This document shows, one piece after another, positions 12,811 through 63,778 of a DNA stretch of 64,000 bases. Position numbers and translations under genes: made by a program. Position 1 is the first letter of the stretch. The number at the start of each line of letters is the position of its first letter. This DNA is from Microbacterium suaedae (GTDB lineage Bacteria; Actinomycetota; Actinomycetes; Actinomycetales; Microbacteriaceae). The notes beneath the pieces were generated by a model, which was not told the origin of the DNA, made no database searches, and saw nothing but the letters and a program-made list of their open reading frames with translations. The stretch is from assembly GCF_003254645.1 (NCBI RefSeq), contig NZ_PNFD01000002.1, positions 310,001 through 374,000 on the forward strand, given 5' to 3'.

Positions 12811-13017
12811 CTACACCCGACGGAACTCGGGCCGGTCCGTGCCGGGCTTCAAATGGGAGATCAGGGCTCCCTTGGCGACCTCGAGCGTCGGGTACGCACC
12901 GATCTCGCGGCGGTCGGCCATGACGACATGGAACAGATCGTCTTCATGGCGGATCGAGCCGACGGCTCCGGCCTTCCCATATGCCATCCACAGCATGTCC
13001 ATCTGCGTTGCACTCAT
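12811..13017 (-). CDS. Small conserved-looking protein of unknown function
   Basis: A 68-residue protein not recognised as a known family. It is convergent with the GH3 lipoprotein gene, 11 bases apart, and its end falls just outside that gene, so it is not an overlap artefact. The composition is that of a folded cytoplasmic protein: a short beta-rich core (IRHEDDLFHVVMADRREIGA) followed by a helix (TLEVAKGALISHL). Single-domain proteins of this size with a YPTLEVAKGAL-like helix occur widely in Microbacteriaceae in my recollection, but no function is claimed. The dinB gene starts on the other strand about 100 bases away, so the two share a divergent promoter region. Confidence 0.6.
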   Translation of the reverse strand: MSATQMDMLWMAYGKAGAVGSIRHEDDLFHVVMADRREIGAYPTLEVAKGALISHLKPGTDRPEFRRV

Positions 13018-14729: not shown

Positions 14730-15286
14730 CGACGCACCTGAACGCGGCGGCGATCGACGGCGTCGTCGATGCGGCCGTCCGCGCGGTCGAGAAAGAGCGA
14801 CCCCGCGTGGGCCGCGTCGTGATCGATGGCCGCAGCGGGGCAGGGAAGACGACGGCCGCGAACCGAATCGCACGAGCCGTCGGCGCACGGGTCGTCTCGC
14901 TCGACGAGTTCTATCCAGGCTGGGAGGGTCTTGCCTCCGCGACCGTGATCGCCGCGGAGCTGGTCGCCGCGCACGCGGACGGGCGAGTGGGGAAGTATCG
15001 CCGGTGGGACTGGGAGACGGGCGAGTGGGACCCGACCCCGCAGCGCGTCGATCCTGATGTTCCGCTCGTGGTGGAAGGGTGCGGCAGCCTCACGGCAGCG
15101 ACTGCGGCGCGCGCAACGGCCGCGGTCTGGATGGACGGCGACGCCGCGGTGCGGCGGGCGGGCGCGATCGCGCGTGACGGTGATGCCTTCGAACCGTTCT
15201 GGGAGACCTGGGCGTGTCAGGAAGAGAAGCACATTCATGCCCACGACCCGCGGGCACTCGCGACGATCGCGGTCGACGTCGCCTGA
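14708..15286 (+). CDS. P-loop nucleoside kinase-like ATPase
   Basis: A 192-residue P-loop NTPase resembling uridine kinase/ATP-binding proteins of actinobacteria. It shows Walker A GRSGAGKTTAAN near residue 43, a DEFYPGWEGL motif matching the nucleoside-binding DxFY region of uridine kinases, and VVEGCGSL in place of Walker B. The C-terminus has a WETWACQEEKHI segment. The frame continues upstream into dinB in a shadow frame, so the start must be found by context: GTG 14708 overlaps the previous gene by 22 bases and is the only good start before Walker A. Substrate is unknown. It is convergent with the DUF2017 gene. Confidence 0.75.
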   Translation: MPQEEALTTHLNAAAIDGVVDAAVRAVEKERPRVGRVVIDGRSGAGKTTAANRIARAVGARVVSLDEFYPGWEGLASATVIAAELVAAHADGRVGKYRRWDWETGEWDPTPQRVDPDVPLVVEGCGSLTAATAARATAAVWMDGDAAVRRAGAIARDGDAFEPFWETWACQEEKHIHAHDPRALATIAVDVA

Positions 15287-15293
15287 TGGGCCG

Positions 15294-15779
15294 TCAGCCC
15301 GCGCGCTGCTCGGCGACCTGAACGAGGCCCTCCAGGCGGTAGCCGAGCCAGTCGTACAGACCGTAGCTCGGGTCGTCCTCGTCGTGCTCCGTGCTCTCGT
15401 CGTCGATGCCGAGGCGACTCGCGAGAACGAGACGAAGGGCGGCGAGCGTGCGCATCCATGCGTCGAGGTGGTCGCCCGCGATCGACACGTCGACGGGGGC
15501 GAGAGCCTCGTCGAGGTCCGCCTTCTCGATCTGAGAGAGATCTCCGCGCACAGCCGCGGCGTCGCGTGCGCGCCGCCCCAGCAGGTCGCCGCGCGTGACC
15601 TGCTGGAACTCACGGGAGGCGTCGGCGTCCTCCGGATACGCGTCGGGGGTGAGGCGCGCGAGCGCGGGATCCGCCGACGGATCCTGCTCGCTCACGAGCG
15701 CCTCGAACTGCGCGACGAGATCGTCGAGATGCGTCGCCTCGATCCGGGTGAGGGTGAGGATCACGAGGTCTTCGCTCAT
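15294..15779 (-). CDS. DUF2017 family protein
   Basis: A 161-residue protein matching the DUF2017 family, which in actinobacteria sits next to clpS. It begins with a beta strand (DLVILTLTRIEATHL), has a helix holding LDDLVAQFEALV, an acidic low-complexity middle, and a C-terminal helical part (LDAWMRTLAALRLVLASRLG then YDWLGYRLEGLVQVAE). Its function is not known; the constant link with ClpS suggests a role in regulated proteolysis, which is inference. The ATG overlaps the clpS stop by four bases (ATGA), so it is translationally coupled and is the last gene of a three-gene operon. Confidence 0.8.
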   Translation of the reverse strand: MSEDLVILTLTRIEATHLDDLVAQFEALVSEQDPSADPALARLTPDAYPEDADASREFQQVTRGDLLGRRARDAAAVRGDLSQIEKADLDEALAPVDVSIAGDHLDAWMRTLAALRLVLASRLGIDDESTEHDEDDPSYGLYDWLGYRLEGLVQVAEQRAG

Positions 15780-16066
15780 CGCGGCGCCTTTCGAACGGTG
15801 GCCCAGAGGCCGTAGTCGTGCATGGCCTGGGCGTGGAGCTCCATCTGCTCGCGCGCGCCCTCGGCGACGACGGCGTGGCCGTCGTGGTGGACGGACAGCA
15901 TGAGCTGCGTCGCGCGATCCTGCGAGTAGCCGAAGTAGGCCCGGAAGACGCGCACGACGTAGCTCATGAGGTTGACAGGGTCATCCCACACGACCGTCTG
16001 CCAGGGCGTGTCGGGATGCGAGGAGGCATCAATCGACTCGTCGGCCTCGGGCAGAACGGTGCTCAT
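15776..16066 (-). CDS. clpS: ClpS adaptor of the Clp protease
   Basis: ClpS delivers N-end-rule substrates to the ClpC-ClpP or ClpA-ClpP protease. The 96-residue product has an unstructured acidic N-terminus followed by the core: WQTVVWDDPVNLMSYVV with the Asp-Asp/Asn that hold the substrate N-terminus, then VHHDGHAVVAEG and a helix with REQMELHAQAMH. The ATG at 16066 is chosen because it overlaps the stop of the upstream metallopeptidase (TGATG); an ATG three codons earlier lies within that gene. The clpP1P2-clpX genes are 31 kb away. Confidence 0.93.
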   Translation of the reverse strand: MSTVLPEADESIDASSHPDTPWQTVVWDDPVNLMSYVVRVFRAYFGYSQDRATQLMLSVHHDGHAVVAEGAREQMELHAQAMHDYGLWATVRKAPR

Positions 16067-16407
16067 CAGGCCCATCCCAGCTCGTGCAGCCGTGCGTCGT
16101 CAATACCGTAGAAGTGCGCGATCTCGTGCACGAGCGTCGTGTGCACTTCGCTGCGTAGCGCCTCGACGGTGTCGCACTGCGCGAGGTGAGGCTCGCGGTA
16201 GACGATGATCCGGTCGGGGAGCTCGCCCATCCCGTAGCGGTCGCGTTCGGTGAGCGCGAGGCCGTCGTACAGCCCGAGCAGGTCGAGTGAGCCATCCTCG
16301 GGGCGGTCCTCAACGACGAAGATCACGTTGTCGAGGCCCTCGACCATGTCGTCGGGGAGCTGATCGAGTTCGTCGACCACGAGGGCTTCGAACTCATCCG
16401 CATCCAT
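16066..16407 (-). CDS. Minimal zincin metallopeptidase
   Basis: A 113-residue protein of the small metallopeptidase family (zincin-like, DUF1025-type). It begins MDADEFEALVVDELDQLPDD, contains a strand with DNVIFVVEDRPEDG, and ends with the zinc motif HEIAHFYGIDDARLHELG, an extended HExxHxxGxxD signature. It lacks a signal peptide, so it acts in the cytoplasm; its substrate is unknown. It is the first gene of the operon with clpS and DUF2017 and couples to clpS through a TGATG junction, which suggests a job in protein turnover. Confidence 0.85.
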   Translation of the reverse strand: MDADEFEALVVDELDQLPDDMVEGLDNVIFVVEDRPEDGSLDLLGLYDGLALTERDRYGMGELPDRIIVYREPHLAQCDTVEALRSEVHTTLVHEIAHFYGIDDARLHELGWA

Positions 16408-16529
16408 GAACCCAGCCTATCGGCGCGTGGCCTCCACGGAGACCGGGAAGCACCTCTCGCGCCCGGGATCCGGACGAGGCGCAGAAGGCTTCTTGTGCGC
16501 CGACGTACACCGGTGGAACGATGTGGGCC

Positions 16530-16955
16530 ATGAGCACTCAGGAACCAGTGATTGAGCTGTCGACCGAGGAGTCTTGGCAGCGACTGCGCTCCGCGGAACT
16601 CGGGCGTGTGGTGACACACGTGCGGGACACGGTCGACATCTTCCCGGTCAACTTCGTCGTCGATGGCGATGCCGTGGTGTTTCGCACGGCCGAGGGGTCC
16701 AAGCTCCTCGAGTTGACGATCAACGAGGACGTTCTGTTCGAGGCCGATGGACACAACGATGCCGAGGCATGGAGCGTCATCGTGCGAGGACACGCTCGTC
16801 GGCTCGAGCTGTCTGCCGAGATCGAGGCGGCCGATGCGCTGGCACTGCGACCCTGGGCACCGACGATGAAGCGCAACTATGTGCGCATCGAGGCAGACGA
16901 GATCACGGGTCGATGGTTTCCGCGGACAGAGGAGCCCGATCACAACCAGCCGTAG
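16530..16955 (+). CDS. Pyridoxamine 5'-phosphate oxidase family protein
   Basis: A 141-residue split-barrel flavin-binding protein of the PNPOx-like family. The N-terminal helix reads LSTEESWQRLRSAELGRVV, then the barrel strands FPVNFVVDGDAVVFRTAEG and a later WSVIVRGHARRLE, ending with a WFPRTEE tail near the C-terminus. Many actinobacterial members bind FMN or F420 and their substrate is unknown; this one is not close to PdxH in size. It stands alone, followed by a strong bidirectional terminator it shares with tRNA-His. The start at 16530 is preferred to 16521. Confidence 0.78.
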   Translation: MSTQEPVIELSTEESWQRLRSAELGRVVTHVRDTVDIFPVNFVVDGDAVVFRTAEGSKLLELTINEDVLFEADGHNDAEAWSVIVRGHARRLELSAEIEAADALALRPWAPTMKRNYVRIEADEITGRWFPRTEEPDHNQP

Positions 16956-16978
16956 GCGTGTCCTGCGGGCGGGAACGC

Positions 16979-17016
16979 AAGAGCCCGTCCGGTTGATCCC
17001 AACCGGACGGGCTCTT
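16979..17016. terminator. Bidirectional terminator
   Basis: A perfect 16-bp stem, AAGAGCCCGTCCGGTT (16979-16994) with AACCGGACGGGCTCTT (17001-17016), loop GATCCC. It can stop the PNPOx-family gene on the plus strand and tRNA-His on the minus strand. Confidence 0.85.
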
Positions 17017-17021
17017 CTCTG

Positions 17022-17094
17022 GGTGGCTGACGGGGCTTGAACCCGCGACCCCCGCGACCACAACGCGGTGCTCTACCAACTGAGCTACAGCCAC
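17022..17094 (-). tRNA. tRNA-His (GTG)
   Basis: Read on the minus strand the gene folds into a cloverleaf with acceptor GTGGCTG/CAGCCAC, D-arm GCTC/GAGC, anticodon loop TTGTGGT with anticodon GTG, and T-loop TTCAAGC. The base before the 5' end reads G and the discriminator is C, as expected for tRNA-His. CCA is not encoded. Confidence 0.95.
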
Positions 17095-17132
17095 CATGTT
17101 TCCCGCTCTCGCAGGGCAACCCGACTATTTTG

Positions 17133-17756
17133 TCATAGGTTCTCGGCGAACTCGTTCACGACATTCTCAGCAATCGCCTTCGCCTCGTCGCTGCTCGGGC
17201 CGGGCTCGGCCACGAAGGCCGCGCGGCGGTAGTAGCGGAGCTCACGGATGGACTCGCGGATGTCCGCGAGTGCTCGGTGGCCGCCATCCTTCTCCGGCGC
17301 CTGGAAGTACACGCGGGGCATCCAGCGGCGCGCGAGCTCTTTGATGCTCGAGACGTCGACATTGCGATAGTGCAGATAGGTGTCGAGCTCGGGCATGTAC
17401 TTCGCCAGGAACATCCTGTCGGTTCCGATCGTGTTCCCTGCGAGAGGAGCCTTGCGCTCCTGCGGCACGAAACGCGCGACGTACTCGAGCACGCGCCGCT
17501 CCGCCTCGGCCAGCGAGACACCGCGAGGGATCTCGATGTCGAGGCCGCTCGCGGCATGCATCTTCGTGACGAACTCACCCATGTTCTCGAGCGCGGCATC
17601 CGACGGCTTGATGACGATCTGGAGGCCGGGGTCGAGGATGTTCAGTTCGAAGTCCGTCACGATCACCGCGATCTCGACCAGCTCGTCAATGGAGGGGTCG
17701 AGGCCCGTCATCTCGCAGTCGATCCATACGAGTCGGTCGTTTTCTGACGTGCTCAC
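17133..17756 (-). CDS. orn: Oligoribonuclease
   Basis: Orn degrades 2-5 nt RNA fragments, including pGpG, in the last step of RNA turnover. The protein is a DEDDh exonuclease: motif I is WIDCEMTGLDP, motif II GNTIGTDRMFL, and motif III HRALADIRESI with the catalytic His and Asp; length is about 207 residues. I place the start at GTG 17756, which has GAGGAG just upstream, instead of the in-frame ATG at 17771 that has no ribosome site. It is flanked by tRNA-His and tRNA-Arg on the same strand. Confidence 0.95.
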   Translation of the reverse strand: MSTSENDRLVWIDCEMTGLDPSIDELVEIAVIVTDFELNILDPGLQIVIKPSDAALENMGEFVTKMHAASGLDIEIPRGVSLAEAERRVLEYVARFVPQERKAPLAGNTIGTDRMFLAKYMPELDTYLHYRNVDVSSIKELARRWMPRVYFQAPEKDGGHRALADIRESIRELRYYRRAAFVAEPGPSSDEAKAIAENVVNEFAENL

Positions 17757-54753: not shown

Positions 54754-55242
54754 GCGCGGAACTCCTCGCGATATGTGCGGCACGGTGTCTGCGTGCCAGA
54801 TGTGGTGGGAACGCGCGCCAGTCTACCCGCGCCGGATCGGGCGATGTCGGGAACATGGTGAAGTGACACTAGATGTAACGCCGAACCGCGATTTTGGGCG
54901 CCGCCGGGCGTGCTTTTCCGTGACAATTTCCGTGATCGGCGCTCGATGACGATGGCCCGGTTCCGGCCTGCCCCCGTACGGAGGCATCCCGGGCTCGACT
55001 CGCGGAGCTTGCACCGTCACCGCACGGATGGGAGGTCGTTGCTGGGAAAGCAGCCGGATGTCGACCATCTTTAGGTCCTTCTTGCGACGATCACACCACC
55101 GGCGCCCAGGGCACAGCGGTACCCAGCTGTCGGGGATGCGGAGCGGAGAGTCCCATTCCCCAGTGATCGATCTCCCCATTGAACAACGTCTTCAATGCAC
55201 AGCAATGGGCTGGGGGTCGCCGACCTACGCTTGAATGCTTGC
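54754..55242. other. Gene-free junction between core and island
   Basis: 489 bases with no supported gene. The valS side carries its ribosome site. Base composition becomes more mixed near 54,860. CATTGAA (55177-55183) and TTCAATG (55191-55197) form a 7-bp inverted repeat about 45 bases before the next gene and could be part of its promoter. No direct repeat or tRNA that would mark an att site was found. Confidence 0.5.
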
Positions 55243-58221
55243 ATGGGAAAGAGCAGAAAATCTAGTAGAAACAAGCGGCCTCGATCTCGACCGCGCGCGG
55301 TGAGCGCCACGCAACGGGAGCCAGACGCACTCGAACAGGTCTTTTCAGCGTATGATCCGGACGAGCTCTGGACGTTGATATTCGCCGCCGCCACGTCCCC
55401 GGGCAACAGGCATCGATCGGTGACATTGGGAAGCAGCTTCGCGGCCGCACTACGAGCCTCCGCCGCTCCGGCATCAGACGAGTACCAGCCGCTGCCGTCG
55501 ATCCAAGCACTGTCCGATCTAGCGGCTACCATCTATGGGATCGGCCCGGCGCGTGAAGACTTCATTCCCACCGACCCGACCCGAACAGCCTTCCTCGCCG
55601 TCGGCTCTGAGCCACTGCGTGCGGTTCCTGGCCTCACCGAACGGCCGGTCGCCGACCTCACGCGTGCGCTCAGAATGGCAGAAGCGGTGGACGGTCGCCT
55701 CCACCGGCGATTTCGATTCGGTATCGCGAACGTGGTGAACGTAGCGATGAGGTACGGCGATCTCTGCGTCCGACACCTAGCGGACGCTTGGGTGCCGGCC
55801 CCAGACCTCAAGCTCAACGATGACGTTTTGTTACCGGACGCTGAACACGAAGCGACGCGGGTCTTTCTCAACCTGGACCCCCTCGACCACATCGAACTCG
55901 GTGAGGCGGACAGAAAGGCTCTGGAATGGATGACGAACTCCGCAAGTGAGGCCGTATTCGATGCTGAGAGTCCGTCCAGTCCGTTCGGAAGGTTCCTTCG
56001 CTTTGGTGACTCAGCGGGCGCATTCCGATGGGTGCCGCCACTCTTCATCCCAGAGATCATGGCTCATGCCGTCCAAGAACTGGTATCCGCGCTCGATCGA
56101 GACGGGCATGCGCGACGGGCACTCCGGAGTTCTTGCCTGAACCAGATCCGCCAGGCCCTATGGCGCTTTTCCAACAGCTTGATCGAAGCCCCTCCCAGCA
56201 GCGAAGGTGTCGATTCCCCGATTCGAGGGATTGACGTTCAGTGGCTGGTGCCGGTGAACCCATCCACCTGCATAGCTGTCTCGGTCATTCATGTTCCCGA
56301 CCTGGGGTCCACTCCACCGCCCCGCATCGGCTCAGTGGAGCTGGCGAAACAGATGAGGTCGCAATCCGGCCCTGTTTCGGTGCGCATGGGGGGAGGGCGA
56401 CAAAGAACCATCAGTCCGGGCGCGGAGGTCATCCCGCTGACGGTGTTCGTCGCGGCCGGTCACATCGCTGTGCCCCAGGCGGTCGGCGAAGCTAACCTCG
56501 CGCTCGAAGACCTGACCTGGATCGCGGAAACGGCCACGTCCGACGATGATCTCTACGCATTCGCGCGGGATCTGAGCGCTCCCGATTTCCCCGAGAGTTT
56601 CGGGTGGGAGGCGATCAACTACTGGGAGCCATGGAAGGCCAATGGTAAGTCGTTCTTCAAGGGCGGTGTGGTACCTACTGCCGTCTACTTTGAAGCGCAT
56701 GCGGGCGAGGCCGAGTGGGATCGAGCAGTAGAGCTATCGGATCTCGAAATGGCGCTCCTCAGGGTTGGGCTTCCCCCGATTCGAGACCTCCGAGCAGCAG
56801 AGGTCGCCCCGGGACCCGTCGCAAACGTCGCGGTGATCGCAGGTGACTCCAGGTACGATGCCACCCGCGGCGTCGTCACCGCGCCGGGTGTTGACGGGTG
56901 GTCCCTCGCTCTCACCGAACCCCCCGTTGCCGTGGCACGGACGAGCCTGGAGGAACTGTCTGCCGACCACCGACGGTTCGTCTTCGACTTATGCGGCGGA
57001 CTAATCTACGGCTTTGCTGCGCTTGGTGATCGATGGCGTTCCGCGCACCAGGCGATCGATGTGCCCGGATACGTCCTCTATCTCCACACATCGGAAACGG
57101 TCTCGGGTGAATCAACCAGCGTGGTCACGCCGTATCTCGCCCCGCACGCACGTGCCGTCGATGAACCAGTCAACGTTTTGTGGCGCATCGATGTCGAGGG
57201 ATTCGCAGATTCGGCGAATGGAGATCCGCACGCGGCGAATCTCCTAACAGGGGACGCAGTGTTCGATCTGCTCCGCGTGGGAGGCATGGATGTCGAAGCG
57301 GCGGCGGCGCTCCGCGACCAGTGGCGTACAGCGAAGCCCTTTCTCATCCTGGAGATGAAGCAGGCGCGGACCACTCTCAATCACCTGCCTGATCCGTGGC
57401 GTCTACGACCCTCTGACGAGAGCCGCATGGTCGCGGCTTTGGGGCGACGACTCCACGGTGCCGGCGTCGAACCTGGAGAGTACCGAGCGGACGACGCGAA
57501 TCGACTTATCCGCGAACATCTTGCGCCCCTTGCTCTCGAAACTCTGATGGAAGGAATCAGGAGACACGACGTGAGCGAGGTGGTGTTGACGGGGATGGAG
57601 CAGCTGGCGAGATTAATGGACAGCGCTATTCATCAGCAAGACGATCTGTCCCGAGTCGCAGCGAACCTCTCGACCGAATGGGATCCGCTCACCCGCACCG
57701 CCGAGCTCTCGGCGGAGACACTTCAGCTTCGTCAATGCAACGAGATCGTGGTGGAAGCCGCCTTGCGCCTCCTGGACGCGCCGGCGGAAGCGAAGCCGAT
57801 CACTCCTCAGGCGTGGAGCGGTCTTCTTGCCGCCGCAGACGCGTACCTCACCGCGACCACACTGAGCGAACGGATGTATCACCAAGTCGCGCCTGCAGTC
57901 ATCAACCTCAGCCCGATGTACGAGCTGGCCGTCGACGACGATTCGCATCCCGACGCATCGGCGTGGGGTCTGCGTAACGACGAATTGAGCCGTGCGGCCG
58001 CAAGCGTTCGGCTGTATGGCACTCAAGATGACGATTCGCTGCAACAGGCGAACGAAGGAGACGACGTCGAGGGTGCTTTCCAGCAGGCATGGGGGGGGCG
58101 ACGTCGCAGGACATGCTCTCCGCCCTCGCCGCTCTCGCAAAGTGGGAGACGTTCGAGCCAGGCAGAACGACCGCGCACGTCACCGTGGCCGAAGCAACAG
58201 CATGGGTATGTGACGCGCTAG
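55243..58221 (+). CDS. Large protein of unknown family, N-terminal part of a frameshifted gene
   Basis: A 992-codon frame starting MGKSRKSSRNKRPRSR, a basic tail, then a mainly helical protein with no domain I recognise. The first ~950 residues read naturally up to the sequence DVEGAFQQAWGG at 58098. After this the frame turns into an Arg/Ser/Pro-rich string typical of a wrong frame. The natural continuation lies one base back, in the frame at 58089-59003. The switch is at a run of eight G (58091-58098) and the codons there are GGG GGG preceded by G, a possible slippery heptamer. The two frames together would encode about 1,250 residues ending in a nuclease. Likely an anti-phage or plasmid-defence protein, from context only. 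Confidence 0.7.
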   Translation: MGKSRKSSRNKRPRSRPRAVSATQREPDALEQVFSAYDPDELWTLIFAAATSPGNRHRSVTLGSSFAAALRASAAPASDEYQPLPSIQALSDLAATIYGIGPAREDFIPTDPTRTAFLAVGSEPLRAVPGLTERPVADLTRALRMAEAVDGRLHRRFRFGIANVVNVAMRYGDLCVRHLADAWVPAPDLKLNDDVLLPDAEHEATRVFLNLDPLDHIELGEADRKALEWMTNSASEAVFDAESPSSPFGRFLRFGDSAGAFRWVPPLFIPEIMAHAVQELVSALDRDGHARRALRSSCLNQIRQALWRFSNSLIEAPPSSEGVDSPIRGIDVQWLVPVNPSTCIAVSVIHVPDLGSTPPPRIGSVELAKQMRSQSGPVSVRMGGGRQRTISPGAEVIPLTVFVAAGHIAVPQAVGEANLALEDLTWIAETATSDDDLYAFARDLSAPDFPESFGWEAINYWEPWKANGKSFFKGGVVPTAVYFEAHAGEAEWDRAVELSDLEMALLRVGLPPIRDLRAAEVAPGPVANVAVIAGDSRYDATRGVVTAPGVDGWSLALTEPPVAVARTSLEELSADHRRFVFDLCGGLIYGFAALGDRWRSAHQAIDVPGYVLYLHTSETVSGESTSVVTPYLAPHARAVDEPVNVLWRIDVEGFADSANGDPHAANLLTGDAVFDLLRVGGMDVEAAAALRDQWRTAKPFLILEMKQARTTLNHLPDPWRLRPSDESRMVAALGRRLHGAGVEPGEYRADDANRLIREHLAPLALETLMEGIRRHDVSEVVLTGMEQLARLMDSAIHQQDDLSRVAANLSTEWDPLTRTAELSAETLQLRQCNEIVVEAALRLLDAPAEAKPITPQAWSGLLAAADAYLTATTLSERMYHQVAPAVINLSPMYELAVDDDSHPDASAWGLRNDELSRAAASVRLYGTQDDDSLQQANEGDDVEGAFQQAWGGRRRRTCSPPSPLSQSGRRSSQAERPRTSPWPKQQHGYVTR

Positions 58222-59003
58222 GCCCGGGCGCGGATGAGTTACAGAGTACGCGTGTCGAAGCCGCTATCGGGATGCTCACGAGCACGGCCGTCCAGATGCA
58301 AGCCGTGGAATGGAGGCCCTGGCAAACGCGCACACGGCGTCATCGGCTCCTCGTGCAACCGGTGGTGCAAGACTTGGACGGAAGACTCATTGTCAGCCCG
58401 CAGTACTTGCTGACGTCCTTTCAGGTCTACTACCGCCACCTGCTCCAAGGCGTTCTTCCCTGGGCGGGGGACGTTCCTCAGCCTGTCACCGACGCGCTTG
58501 CGGGCCGCCGTGCGCGCCGCAACATTCGGTTCGAAAGGTCCCTCCAAGTACGGCTGGAGCAACTCGGATACGCCACGGTCGCCCGCGTGAAACCCAACGA
58601 CCACGCGCGGCTCGGCGTGCCGACTCTCACTACCGAAGTTGACCTCGTGTGCGGCCGCGCTGGCGATAGCACCGTGTGGCTGATTGAGGCAAAAGACCCC
58701 GCATCGGTTCACGGATTCGCCGAGACGGCGCGCCAACTGCGCTCCTTCTTCCGGGACCAGGTAGGAGCCCGCGGGACCAAGCCCTGCTACACCACACAGC
58801 TGTCCCGCAAGGAGAGCGAACTAGCACCCCACGTCGCGAGCATTGCGGCGCACCTCGGGCTCGGCGACCCGCCCGACGGCGAGCAGTTTCGCCTGAGCAC
58901 GCTCTTCGTAACTCGAAATCTCACTCCGGCGAGTTACGTCGACGAGCGGTATCGGGTTGAGACGGCGGCGGATTTTCTTGCAGCTCGAGGCCAAGCCGCG
59001 TAG
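58089..59003 (+). CDS. PD-(D/E)XK nuclease domain, C-terminal part of the frameshifted gene
   Basis: A 304-codon frame that continues the preceding gene in the -1 frame. It contains a restriction-endonuclease-like fold: helix with RFERSLQVRLEQLGYATVA, then TTEVDLVCG with Asp185 and VWLIEAKDP with Glu200 and Lys202 (numbering from ATG 58089), the D-x(14)-E-x-K arrangement of PD-(D/E)XK enzymes. The Mrr/NERD-like order suggests cleavage of DNA. An ATG overlapping the G run allows separate initiation, so it could also be made as a free nuclease subunit. It ends facing a decayed antitoxin-like gene. Confidence 0.7.
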   Translation: MGGATSQDMLSALAALAKWETFEPGRTTAHVTVAEATAWVCDALGPGADELQSTRVEAAIGMLTSTAVQMQAVEWRPWQTRTRRHRLLVQPVVQDLDGRLIVSPQYLLTSFQVYYRHLLQGVLPWAGDVPQPVTDALAGRRARRNIRFERSLQVRLEQLGYATVARVKPNDHARLGVPTLTTEVDLVCGRAGDSTVWLIEAKDPASVHGFAETARQLRSFFRDQVGARGTKPCYTTQLSRKESELAPHVASIAAHLGLGDPPDGEQFRLSTLFVTRNLTPASYVDERYRVETAADFLAARGQAA

Positions 59004-59026
59004 ACGACCTGCGAGCGGCGGCGCCA

Positions 59027-59752
59027 TCAGAGCAGACACCGACACCCATCCCTTGTCTTCAAAAGGTCGATGGTCTCGCTCGGGCGCGGCACGACTTTCC
59101 CCGGCGAGGACAGACTGAACTGCCACGACGGAAACCGCTTCGACTGGGAGACACCAACCGCGTGCAATTCTCCGCGATCGGCGGCCGCGAAGAGAGAAGC
59201 ACCGTTCGTGTTCAAGAAGGTGGACGTCGCGGCTGCCGGCATGCTCTGATGCAGGCTCGTCTGAAGAGGCCCGCCGCAACCGCCGCGAGGCCCCGCGAGC
59301 GACCCGAGTCGACGTCGGCTCGAATGTCTCCGGGGTGAACGTCTTGGACTGGACAAGGTAGCTGATCTCCTGAGGCGTCAACTCCTCCTGATCCGCGATC
59401 GGTCGCTCAGCAAGCTGGTCCGTCAGCGCCCGAACCATGAGATCACCGTCGGTATTCCAACGGCAACGGCGTCAGCAAACGCTGCGACCACGTCGTTGGA
59501 TGACCGTGCTGCCGCAGGCGGGTCCGCGGCTGCCTTCAGCCGGGCGATCGCATACCTGTCGAGCTTCTCGCAGATGCCCGGCGCGAACCCCGACCCGCAG
59601 CTTCTGCATCCAAACCCCGCAAGGCGCCGAAGATCTTCCTGCGGTGACGTCAGCGACGTCGTTGGCGAGCGATACTGTGGCCGAATGACGGAAGATGTGC
59701 GGGTTCTGATCGAAGCCGAGCGCGCGCATCGAGGAGAGCGCCATGTTCTCAA
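59027..59752 (-). pseudogene. Decayed antitoxin-like DNA-binding protein
   Basis: On the minus strand three frames together spell one protein. 59752 to about 59460 reads ICEKLDRYAIARLKAAADPP; about 59438 to 59300 reads LMVRALTDQLAERPI and ELTPQEISYLVQSKTFTPE; about 59260 to 59030 reads SLFAAADRGELHAV then KRFPSWQFSLSSPGKVVP. The order (helical N-terminus, LT..EI.YL..S..FTPE.., then fP.WQF..lPgl) is that of a common actinobacterial antitoxin-like DNA-binding family. At least two frameshifts separate the parts. No toxin gene remains beside it. Confidence 0.5.
59673..59687 (+). promoter_or_regulatory. Candidate promoter of the SLATT/CD-NTase pair
   Basis: TACTGT (59673-59678) lies six bases before ATG 59685, the leaderless spacing seen in core genes. 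That ATG opens a 27-codon frame ending at 59768 and overlapping the SLATT start, which could couple translation. No convincing -35 was found. Confidence 0.35.
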
Positions 59753-60180
59753 CCGAGGGTCAGATTGAGGCGAGCAAAATATGGACCGGGCTCCACTGGA
59801 TCCTCGGCGGCGGCACCGCGATCGCCAGCGGCGTCACGGCAGTGCTGACCTTCGCCTTGGGAGGTCTCCAGGTACTCGCGGGATGCTTGGCACTGCTCGC
59901 GGCGATCACCGCGGCCGTACACGTCACGCTGCGACCGGACAAGCGAGCGGAGCGCACTCAGGCGGATGCGGCGCGATACAAAGCCCTGCAGGGCGCTGCG
60001 CGCCGGCTCGCCATTGACCTCGCAACTCGTCCGGTCGACGACGCTCGCACGGACCTGAACACGCTCGCCGCCGAGGTGGACGCCCTGAACACGTCGGCCG
60101 ATCCAATCCCCGGGCGAGCATACTGGCGAGCCAGGAAGAACATCGAAAACGGCGGTCAGACTTTCCAGGTCGACGTGTGA
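59743..60180 (+). CDS. SLATT-domain two-transmembrane effector
   Basis: A 145-residue protein with two adjacent membrane helices near the N-terminus (about residues 17-38, IWTGLHWILGGGTAIASGVT onward, and 40-62, LQVLAGCLALLAAITAAVHV) and a helical cytosolic part with AARYKALQGAARRLAIDLA. This is the SLATT layout (SMODS and SLOG-associating two-TM effector), predicted to form pores in the inner membrane when a nucleotide second messenger is made. GAGGAG precedes ATG 59743. Its stop overlaps the GTG of the CD-NTase by four bases, so the pair is one unit, like a minimal CBASS operon. Confidence 0.72.
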   Translation: MFSTEGQIEASKIWTGLHWILGGGTAIASGVTAVLTFALGGLQVLAGCLALLAAITAAVHVTLRPDKRAERTQADAARYKALQGAARRLAIDLATRPVDDARTDLNTLAAEVDALNTSADPIPGRAYWRARKNIENGGQTFQVDV

Positions 60181-61001
60181 CCACGGTCACTGGCTACCTC
60201 ACCTTCGTCGCCTCCGTGGCGACCCCGACTGACGCGGATCGTGCACGCGCAAGCCTGCACCGGAGTGCAATCGAGCGGCGCCTGAAGGCTGATCTCGGAG
60301 TCTTCTACATCTTCGAGACGGGGTCGTAGTCTCACGACACAGCCGCCTCTCCCTGGAGCGACGTGGACTACTTCGCATCAATGCCCGGTGTGCGTCTGCA
60401 GACGAGCGCGGGAGATCTGGAGAGGATTCGAGCCGCACTCTCTCTCGAATTCCCGGACGTATACGCGCATGTCGACCGGCCCGTGGTGAAGCTGACGTTT
60501 CCGGATGGCCCGTATATGGAGATTGCGCCGGCGCACTACGTCGGTGACGATGACAACGACATCCCTGATCCGACTGGCGCGGGCTGGAGACGCAGCAGCC
60601 CGACCAAGCACAGAGAGTACGTCAACGAGTCGAAGAGGCAGGTGCCTCAGACGAAGCGATTCGTGCGCCTGCTTAAGGAGTAGAAGCACAAGCAGCACGT
60701 TCCCATCTCTTCGCTATATCTCGAGATGCGTGCGGCAAAGCCCGTCCGAGACAACAAGCCCTGTGTTGACGTGTACGACTTCGCGTGGTTCTTCCGCGAT
60801 CTTGAGAGAAACAGTCTCGCCGATATGAACGATCCGAGCCGGTTCGATGGTCGGCGCATCGTTGCGGTGGACGATTCCGAGCGCGCGACGGCTCGAGAGT
60901 CGGTGCGGATAACCGCCGAGGTCACGAAGTTGACCCTCGAATGCCACAAGAACGGCAACGAGGCCCTAGCGGTCGAGGCAATGAAGATCCTCTTCACTTA
61001 G
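60177..61001 (+). pseudogene. CD-NTase (SMODS nucleotidyltransferase) with two in-frame TAG codons
   Basis: Starting at GTG 60177, one frame runs 274 codons and is broken only by TAG at 60327-60329 (codon 51) and 60681-60683 (codon 169). It shows the nucleotidyltransferase signature FETGS-(TAG)-SHDTAASPWSDVDYF, i.e. GS then DxD, the third carboxylate in FPDGPYMEIAPAHYV, and the SMODS helix VRLLKE-(TAG)-KHKQHVPISSLYLEM. In relatives the residue after LLK(E/A) is tryptophan and that after GS is aromatic, so each TAG could be TGG with one G-to-A change. Such enzymes make cyclic di- or trinucleotides on phage infection. As read it is inactive unless amber codons are read through. Confidence 0.72.
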
Positions 61002-61083: not shown

Positions 61084-61120
61084 CTGACGGACGGCCTAGT
61101 TTCAGGGCATAATGGTGCGC
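61084..61120 (+). promoter_or_regulatory. Promoter of the PIN-domain gene
   Basis: CTGACG (61084-61089) and CATAAT (61108-61113) are 18 bases apart, with ATG 61121 seven bases after the -10 box, fitting a leaderless transcript. The gene therefore has its own promoter after the CD-NTase. Confidence 0.5.
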
Positions 61121-62224
61121 ATGCTCGTCGTTGTGCTCGATACCAACGCCGTCCACAGCGACCCGTGGCTGGCTAGTCCGCCAGGCAAGAAGCTCCTGGA
61201 CCTGGCCGCGAGCGGATCCTGCGTGGTCGTGTACCCGCAGGTGGTGATCGACGAGTTGCTTCGACAACGCCGAGAGGCGGCCGATCGTGCTCACAGCGAG
61301 GCGGCCAAGGGGGTCGGCGACATGGCGAAGTCCGGCGTCGACGTCAGACAGACGATCGCTGACCTGGAGGCGAGCTTCGCCGGGATCGGCGCGGACCTGC
61401 TTTCGGCATTCGGGGCAGTGCTGAAACGCGACAACGTCACTGCCGAGCCTGTGCCAGATGTGGCCGCAACGGAAATCCTCAAGCGAGACCTTGCACGTCG
61501 GCGACCGTTCATTGAGATCGATTTCAAGCAGAAGCCCGCATCGGTGGGCTTCCGCGACACCCTGATCTGGGAGACGGTGCTCGCTATTCTGGCCCGGGAC
61601 AACGAGCGGAAGATATTGTTCGTGACCGCGGACAAGGGGTTCCTGTCCGTGGATTCGAAGACGCTTCACCAACATCTGCTCGAGGATCTCGACGAACGTG
61701 GGATCGGACGCAATCGCGTCGGGAGTGTGAAGAACGTTCCGCATGCGATTGCCGAAGTCGAAGCAGCAGATCATGCTGCGCTGGTGACTGCGGCTACCGA
61801 TGCCCTCTACGAACTCGCGGATCGGGAGATCTCACAGCAGATGGGCTACGGCGGCGACTACGACTATCCGGACTTTGTGAAGTTCGAAGTCCCCGCAATG
61901 GAGGGCGGCTCCATCAGCTATATCGATCAGACGACGGAGTTCGAGTTCGCCCGACAGCCCGGTTCAGTCGCCGTCACCGCCACAGCCGATGCGCTCATCT
62001 ATATCGAGGGCCCCGTCTTCAAGGGAGACTGGTTCATCGACGGAGGCGAATCTATGAGCCTCTCGGGCGAGCTTAACGATCACTACTTCGAAGCAAGCAG
62101 CGAGATCGCGGTGCGGGTCGTCGTCGAGCTCGACACGAGCGGAGACAGCCCCCAAGCTCTCAGCATCCAGCTCGAGGATCTGCCCTCATCGTCCAGCGGG
62201 TCGGAGGAGACAGAGACGGCTTGA
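61121..62224 (+). CDS. PIN-domain (DUF4935-like) putative ribonuclease
   Basis: A 367-residue protein with an N-terminal PIN-like nuclease domain: LVVVLDTNAVHSDPW (first Asp), VVIDELLRQRREAA (Glu), FRDTLIWETVLAIL and ILFVTADKGFL (further acidic residues). The C-terminal 130 residues are beta-rich and acidic, ending in a Ser/Glu tail. PIN proteins of the DUF4935 type occur in defence islands and toxin systems and are thought to cut RNA; the target is unknown. ATG 61121 matches the promoter; ATG 61112 three codons earlier is possible. It is the only fully intact large gene of the island. Confidence 0.8.
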   Translation: MLVVVLDTNAVHSDPWLASPPGKKLLDLAASGSCVVVYPQVVIDELLRQRREAADRAHSEAAKGVGDMAKSGVDVRQTIADLEASFAGIGADLLSAFGAVLKRDNVTAEPVPDVAATEILKRDLARRRPFIEIDFKQKPASVGFRDTLIWETVLAILARDNERKILFVTADKGFLSVDSKTLHQHLLEDLDERGIGRNRVGSVKNVPHAIAEVEAADHAALVTAATDALYELADREISQQMGYGGDYDYPDFVKFEVPAMEGGSISYIDQTTEFEFARQPGSVAVTATADALIYIEGPVFKGDWFIDGGESMSLSGELNDHYFEASSEIAVRVVVELDTSGDSPQALSIQLEDLPSSSSGSEETETA

Positions 62225-62495: not shown

Positions 62496-63778
62496 GGGTC
62501 TGCTGAACGGATAGGTGACAGGGGTTAGTCAGACCGCGAGGGCCATGGACGGTCTCATCGTGGCCTCGAACTCGACCGGGGTCAACTTCCCCAGACGGGC
62601 CTGCCGCCTGCGCCGGTGGTAGGTGCGTTCGATCCAAGTCACGATCGTGATGCGCAGTTCCTCACGCGTCGCCCAGGATCGCCGGTTGGGGACGTTCTTC
62701 TGTAGGAGACTGAAGAACGATTCCATCGCGGCGTTGTCGCCGGCCGCGCCGACTCTGCCCATCGACCCGACCAGGCTGTGACGGGCCAGCGCACGCACGG
62801 TCTTCCGAGCGCGAAATTGGCTTCCTCTGTCGCTGTGAACGACACAGCCAGCGACGTCACCGCGCAACGCGACTGCGTTGTCGATGGCGTTCACGACCAG
62901 GCGGGACTTCATCCTCGAATCGATCGAATAGCCGACGATCTTGCCGGAGAAGGCGTCCCTGATCGCGCAGAGGTAGAGCTTGCCCTCGCCGGTCTTGTGC
63001 TCGCTGATGTCCGTCAGCCACAGCCGGTTCGGCGTATCGGCGACGAACTCTCGTTGTACGAGATCGTCGTGCATGGGCGGACCAGGCCTCTTGCCCGCCC
63101 CGCGGGCCTTCTTCTTCCCGAACGCCGACCACCAGCCGTTTCGCGAGGTGATCTTCCATGCCGTCCGGTCCGACATCGCTTCCCCCGGCGTTGCGGGCTT
63201 CGTCGGCGAGGAATCGGTGCCCTAACTCGGGATCGTCCCGGTGGGCGTCGAACAGCGCGCTCGCGCGATACGCCTCGGTCAGTTCAGCCTCGGTGATTGG
63301 GCTCTTCAGCCAGCGGCAGTTCGGCTGGCGAGCGAGCTTCAGTACCCGGCACGTCACCGCGACGGGGATCCCGTCGACGGCGAGCTCCGTCACGAGCGGG
63401 TAGAGCCATTTCCCGGCAGATGCGCCTGGGACAGACACGCGGTCGCTCGGCGGAGGACCTCGTTCTCCTGCTCGAGGAGACGGATCCGCTTGTTCGCCTC
63501 CCGCAGCTGCTCGGTCTGCGCCGTGGTCGGCATCGCGGCGGTCGGATCCGTGTCGCCGCGGTCGATGCGAGCGCGTTGGAGCCACTTCTGCAGCGTCATG
63601 GGGTGAACGCGAAGTCCTTCGCGATCTGCTCGATCGTGACGCCGGACTCACGGTTCTCTGCGACGCGCACGTCGTCGTCGCGGAACTCCTGAGGGTAGGG
63701 AGCGGGCATGGTGTCATCCTTCCGGGCACGCCCTCCGGGCACGCCATCTCAGATGTCACCTACTCGTTCAGCAGACCC
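62496..63778 (-). mobile_element. IS3-family insertion sequence
   Basis: A 1.28-kb element bounded by 25-bp inverted repeats: the left end starts GGGTCTGCTGAACGGATAGG (62496-62520) and the right end (63754-63778) is its complement with two mismatches. It carries an IS3-type orfA/orfB on the minus strand with a DDE transposase. No certain target duplication was seen, so exact ends may differ by one or two bases. Confidence 0.85.
62529..63709 (-). pseudogene. IS3 transposase OrfA-OrfB, frameshifted
   Basis: OrfA begins at ATG 63709 (PAPYPQEFRDDDVRVAENRE, the HTH), stops at 63596 and continues in another frame as MTLQKWLQRA and IRLLEQENEVLRRAT. A normal -1 switch at GGGAAATGG joins it to OrfB (KWLYPLVTELAVDG). 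OrfB then shifts again near 63186, where GGGGG stands where GGGG would keep frame, and continues as SDRTAWKITSRNGWW. The DDE residues are visible in RLWLTDISEHKTGEGKLYL, GCVVHSDRGSQF and GDNAAMESFFSLL. With two extra frameshifts the element is probably inactive, unless these are sequence errors. Confidence 0.8.

Follow-up and report, generated by a model that had tools for sequence, protein, structure and literature searches.

A split gene for a putative Upx-like anti-phage nuclease in Microbacterium suaedae

Why does a long gene of Microbacterium suaedae lose its reading frame at a run of eight G, upstream of a nuclease motif that is still intact? The gene lies in a 64,000-nucleotide stretch of the forward strand (contig NZ_PNFD01000002.1 of assembly GCF_003254645.1, positions 310,001 to 374,000), hereafter the window, from a 3.35-Mb genome in 11 contigs. 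Positions given without a locus name are those of the window, and relatives are named by our locus (L) and genome (G) handles. An earlier note on this DNA had described a gene split at the G8 run, coding for about 1,250 residues with a PD-(D/E)XK nuclease at the C-terminal end, and our analyses support that description. They further reveal a remote relationship to the protein Upx and indicate that the locus probably derives from a single-gene, Upx-like anti-phage nuclease that was broken recently.

A gene split at a run of eight G

The upstream open reading frame (ORF1) begins at ATG 55195 in the ORF list, with ATG 55243 in the same frame. A start motif, [MV]G[RKQ][SN]K, is conserved in 12 of the 12 loci compared and aligns with ATG 55243 in L011-L015; thus, the start at 55243 that the earlier note had chosen is the correct one. 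From there, as the note had read it, the frame runs up to the G8 run (58091-58098), which sits in the sequence T-GGGGGGGG-C at 58090-58099. Past the run, the ORF1 frame yields about 40 nonsense residues up to a stop at 58219-58221, and the -1 frame (ORF2, 58089-59003) carries on to 59003 with the nuclease motif D185...E200-x-K202 (ORF2 numbering) intact. These residues correspond to the invariant columns D181, E196 and K198 of our alignment A4, which begins at ORF2 residue 5. The D and the E-x-K are invariant in all 12 full-length family members and in all 11 alignment rows, the window included.

Homologs encoded in one frame, a possibility that the earlier note had raised, were found within the genus. 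The gene is present in 14 of 366 Microbacterium genomes, and in 11 of the 14 a single uninterrupted frame, of at least 1,268 codons from stop to stop, encodes a protein of about 1,250 residues. A search with the N-terminal half also gave 12 named relatives, and at 10 of these loci the frame continues to its end without a break. Protein identity to single-frame close relatives is ∼88-92% along both halves of the window gene, and because both halves align lengthwise with these relatives, the split arrangement is not a chance one. Two separate genes in an operon, or a split protein with reassembling halves, would be consistent with the ATG that ORF2 has of its own at 58089 and with the catalytic residues kept downstream; however, the frame passes this point unbroken in each of 10 aligned close relatives, which makes such an arrangement extremely improbable.

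No other homopolymer in the window reaches eight, which makes the G8 run the longest there. In the whole genome there are eight exact G8/C8 runs, the window's included (both strands; longer runs left out of the count). At the junction, nine of 11 aligned sequences read GGGGAG, several of these nine being nearly identical to one another; one relative (G001) has an in-frame GGGGGG and the window has G8, so that a run longer than 4 is found in two of the 11, window included. In a comparison with five relatives (three of them nearly identical), the G8 run is the only indel of the window coding sequence; L013 has an indel of its own. Since the relatives have six bases where the window has eight, the plain reading of the sequences is that two extra Gs were added to a run created by a silent A-to-G change, rather than that the run is a conserved slippery site. 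One missing G in the assembly had been among the possibilities in the earlier note; compared with its relatives, the window would instead have two bases too many. A gene tree built with FastTree and rooted at the midpoint groups G965 with G001 and places the window as their sister. Because G965 retains GGGGAG, the silent A-to-G change arose twice, reverted or was exchanged.

The earlier note had also proposed programmed -1 frameshifting, and we considered this together with transcript slippage, either of which would be a designed means of making two products, one short and one long. The run holds a possible frame-0 slip site, G-GGG-GGG, at which slipping back by one base would restore the full-length protein, longer by a single glycine. 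We rejected this candidate because the slip site is not conserved, the G8 run being absent in nine of 10 aligned relatives, and because no stimulatory structure was found, the predicted fold of the 81 RNA bases downstream being no more stable than those of shuffled sequence (z 0.35). With 11 of the 14 gene-bearing genus genomes using one frame, programmed slippage is very unlikely.

Disrupted copies were found elsewhere in the family. The three genus copies that are not in one open frame, those of the window, G934 (apparently the genome to which L013 belongs) and G887, are each disrupted differently. L013/G934 has a 1-base deletion near the gene end. G887 is interrupted after about residue 75-79, and its match also ends near residue 1105. 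In Arthrobacter (L018), there is one in-frame stop (12983-12985) between the long region and the nuclease part. An apparent concentration of lesions toward the C-terminal end, within the last third, was considered and dropped because a search with the N-terminal part located the G887 interruption near residue 75-79 as well. As a separate observation, the frame beside the end of the G887 match was read as transposase-like, a label taken from no library.

Relation to Upx

Upx is represented by NCBIfam NF042954, PADLOC PDLC02221 and PDB entry 9wuf, "Cryo-EM structure of Upx". It is named in PMC10855318 and PMC12629846, and literature searches naming Upx gave no study of its mechanism or structure among the matches listed. 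ORF2 weakly matches Upx in PADLOC (expect value [E] 2.6e-6) and in NCBIfam (E 3.9e-6, 24.3 bits), and a full-length relative, L016, scored 23.9 bits against NF042954. The PADLOC Upx model was also matched by full-length L015, L016, L017 and L020 (4/4 given), and by L024 and L026, with the best stretches all in the C-terminal part; L025 was without a PADLOC Upx match. Neither ORF2 nor L016 reaches the curated cut-off of NF042954, 1900 bits, and with 24 bits against 1900 we name the protein Upx-like, not Upx. A search of Escherichia coli genomes with the Upx tail gave no match.

As a yardstick we collected five Upx-like proteins, among them one from Salmonella that is Upx itself over its C-terminal 844 residues (it scores 1483 bits with the Upx model and matches 9wuf residues 429-1272). 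Aligned to these by hhalign, the window family scored 99.3% (E 3e-20) over 802 columns, spanning columns 389-1244. By piece, residues 640-950 scored 95.2% and residues 940-1252 98.0%, with swapped controls at 0.1% and 0.4%. Residues 390-700 reached 3.1%, and residues 1-390 alone gave no signal against the Upx-like proteins (0.1%). When PDB sequences were searched with the window family profile, nothing but 9wuf matched with an E of 1 or less (E 3.1e-9, profile positions 659-1168). The family is thus a remote relative of Upx over its C-terminal half. The first 950 residues had no significant match in the profile libraries used, and the earlier note had held that they match no family known to it. 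By sequence, residues 1-390 show no relation and 390-700 are weak, but residues 640-950 are Upx-like.

To gain insight into the folds, we predicted structures of the two halves. For the C-terminal model (300 residues; predicted local distance difference test [pLDDT] 75.6), Foldseek gave a single match under 0.001, 9wuf (E 5.5e-8), which is also the top structural match (Z 12.2, root mean square deviation [rmsd] 5.2 over 257 residues, 14% identity in the structural alignment). Next come AF1548 (Z 8.5), FokI (Z 7.7) and other nucleases by title, matching mostly residues 124-300. Residues 1-133 of this model match Cdt1 and Muk proteins (Z 5.8-6.7), and we therefore label them winged-helix-like. 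The model of residues 1-947 is poor (pLDDT 45.8). Its only Foldseek match below 0.001 is 9wuf (E 1.1e-4, the next at 0.53), and this low-confidence model superimposes on 9wuf over model residues 28-946 with Z 13.4 and an rmsd of 17.8. This fold match weakly supports an Upx-like N-terminal third.

The window family and Upx share a single protein of ∼1,250 residues with a C-terminal PD-(D/E)XK nuclease after a winged-helix-like part. Residues 640-1252 on their own show a clear sequence relation, and for each of the two modeled halves Foldseek gives 9wuf as the sole match below 0.001. The window family and Upx differ in the 24 bits against 1900, in the 14% structural identity, in residues 1-390, which have no detectable sequence relation, and in the window copy being broken. 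Upx-like proteins from Deinococcus (L029, L030), Bosea (L035) and the same phylum (G739, L027) have similar length and layout and the same nuclease motif. Against the Upx models, L029 scores 110 bits, L035 283 and L027 126, compared to only 18-27 for the matching members of the window family, and these proteins, judged by their sequences, link the family to Upx. FokI, EndoMS, Hjc resolvases, McrC and Can2/Card1, which we take to have the PD-(D/E)XK fold, resemble the nuclease part only (Z 5.8 to 7.7, where Z under 8 may reflect a common arrangement only) and have other domain sets than the window family. With the libraries used, no nucleoside triphosphatase (NTPase) or ring-nucleotide sensor domain was matched in the family.

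A single-gene defense role is plausible for the Upx-like protein from its sequence. Intact relatives are predicted to consist, over ∼1,250 residues, of a long N-terminal and middle region, the winged-helix-like part and the C-terminal nuclease. The long region would sense infection or foreign DNA and free the nuclease, and DNA would then be cut without a fixed partner gene.

Surroundings and distribution of the gene

Homology of the window to L011, L014, L015 and G001 is confined to 55184-59536, a stretch that takes in the nuclease gene and the small convergent gene following it (Table 1). The latter is open in five of five named close relatives. Farther downstream lie an effector gene and a cyclase gene of the cyclic oligonucleotide-based antiphage signaling system (CBASS) type; the cyclase frame, cut by two stop codons, is otherwise whole, its three pieces corresponding to profile positions 5-51, 54-173 and 176-279 of 287.

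Table 1. Positions of the split gene and its neighbors in the window (2TM, two-transmembrane)
Feature	Position	Strand	Remarks
N-terminal and middle part of Upx-like protein, ~952 residues	55243..58098	+	frame 0; 88-92% protein identity to three aligned close relatives
G8 run, frame lost	58091..58098	+	GGGGAG in 9/10 aligned relatives, G6 in one (G001)
ORF2, C-terminal 304 residues: winged-helix-like part and PD-(D/E)XK nuclease	58089..59003	+	D, E, K intact
Decayed small convergent gene following nuclease gene	59017..59536	-	several indels, C-terminal end lost
SLATT / 2TM CBASS-type effector	59743..60180	+	open frame
CBASS oligonucleotide-cyclase gene	60183..61001	+	two in-frame TAG codons, 60327 and 60681
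PIN-domain protein	61112..62224	+	open frame
IS3-family transposase (integrase core)	62529..63176	-	library match

In the five close named relatives, the nuclease gene lies inside a common block of neighbors. In L015, Pfam identified a RES domain on the upstream side of the nuclease gene and an AAA/NACHT-like NTPase on its downstream side, and a small gene beside the RES gene gave only a weak helix-turn-helix match. Neighbor families not restricted to the close group are found at two to five of 16 loci, and no conserved partner gene stands beside the nuclease gene across the 16.

Two further observations concern these surroundings. Two homologous small genes flank the nuclease gene in the close relatives (L015 8359-9839 and 13838-14710, minus strand); the upstream one overlaps the RES-domain gene and looks like part of a toxin-antitoxin pair, with a lone second copy downstream. 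The NTPase near the L015 nuclease gene (14751-17501) has 916 residues and weak library matches.

The gene is sporadic, occurring in four of 398 genomes of a family-wide sample (window included). A plasmid search gave 11 records, all from Streptomyces, with partial, distant matches. The Streptomyces plasmid loci L032-L034 were left out of the alignments, and L033 had no Upx match in NCBIfam. On these plasmids, a short gene (L032 4851-5741) matches the nuclease part of the family only, and another (L034 3713-5179) matches the N-terminal part only, with an IS3 transposase directly after it. A viral or phage origin was considered and set aside: phage records held no relative of the family, and the 12 stretches of viral contigs picked out by two short peptide patterns included none confirmed as a relative.

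Decay and its alternatives

Because the adjacent convergent gene and the nearby CBASS cyclase gene are also broken, we rank decay first, followed by phase variation and assembly error at about equal rank. Under decay, a silent A-to-G change would have given G6, after which two Gs would have been added, most simply by slipped-strand mispairing. The product would be a truncated protein of ∼990 residues, and since it would be missing the nuclease, the system would be off apart from any leak through slippage.

Several points weigh against decay. Pairwise ratios of nonsynonymous to synonymous rates (dN/dS) are 0.174-0.260 between the window and L011, L014 and L015, and 0.145-0.164 among those three. 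Window-specific replacement and silent changes number 15:16 downstream of the run and 16:38 upstream; the downstream counts of L014 (7:7) and L015 (4:5) are similar to the window's, and L011 has 11:23. The downstream ratio of the window is thus higher, yet far from neutral, and rests on few changes; the downstream half appears not clearly drifted and still constrained. In addition, the CBASS cyclase gene lies outside the stretch common to the relatives, so that its decay need not be tied to that of the nuclease gene and is circumstantial. The truncated product could still be acting, and the literature searches found no phage assay of the Upx-like family.

Given the constraint kept downstream, the break is recent, reversible or an artifact. 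A reversible break would be phase variation, in which the G run toggles the full-length nuclease by slipped-strand mispairing and the sequenced strain was caught in the off state. The gene has a long intragenic G run, no other indel and no neutral drift, the G001 lineage has its in-frame G6 run at the same place, and other bacteria are reported to switch restriction genes through such runs. However, nine of 10 aligned relatives go no further than G4 at the junction, the genome, with just eight exact G8/C8 runs, shows no sign of a switchable gene set, and the lesions in the neighboring genes are not all run changes. Reading the seven other G8 runs of the genome for a link with broken genes favored none of the explanations. 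We consider phase variation unlikely.

A break that is not real would be an assembly or sequencing error, the true run being in frame and the gene intact. The site is a homopolymer, the gene has no other indel and its downstream codons are still constrained; against this, the difference from the relatives is two bases, and the neighboring lesions include nonsense codons that lie beyond any run error. Accurate reads would not be expected to fail at a run as short as eight G. Such an error is about as improbable as a switch.

Compared to the simple loss of one gene, a bolder interpretation is that the Upx-like nuclease of Micrococcales is costly to its host and has been repeatedly switched off, here reversibly through a new G run, in an island whose nuclease and CBASS cyclase are near-intact and silenced. 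We regard this as somewhat speculative and doubtful.

If decay is correct, the broken window copy would be an ordinary example of such gene loss, three of 14 gene-bearing genus genomes having a disrupted copy. With this family, the Upx kind of single-gene defense would reach into a divergent branch of actinobacteria whose scores are far under the library cut-off, and the aligned intact relatives may serve as a set for testing which N-terminal parts sense phage.

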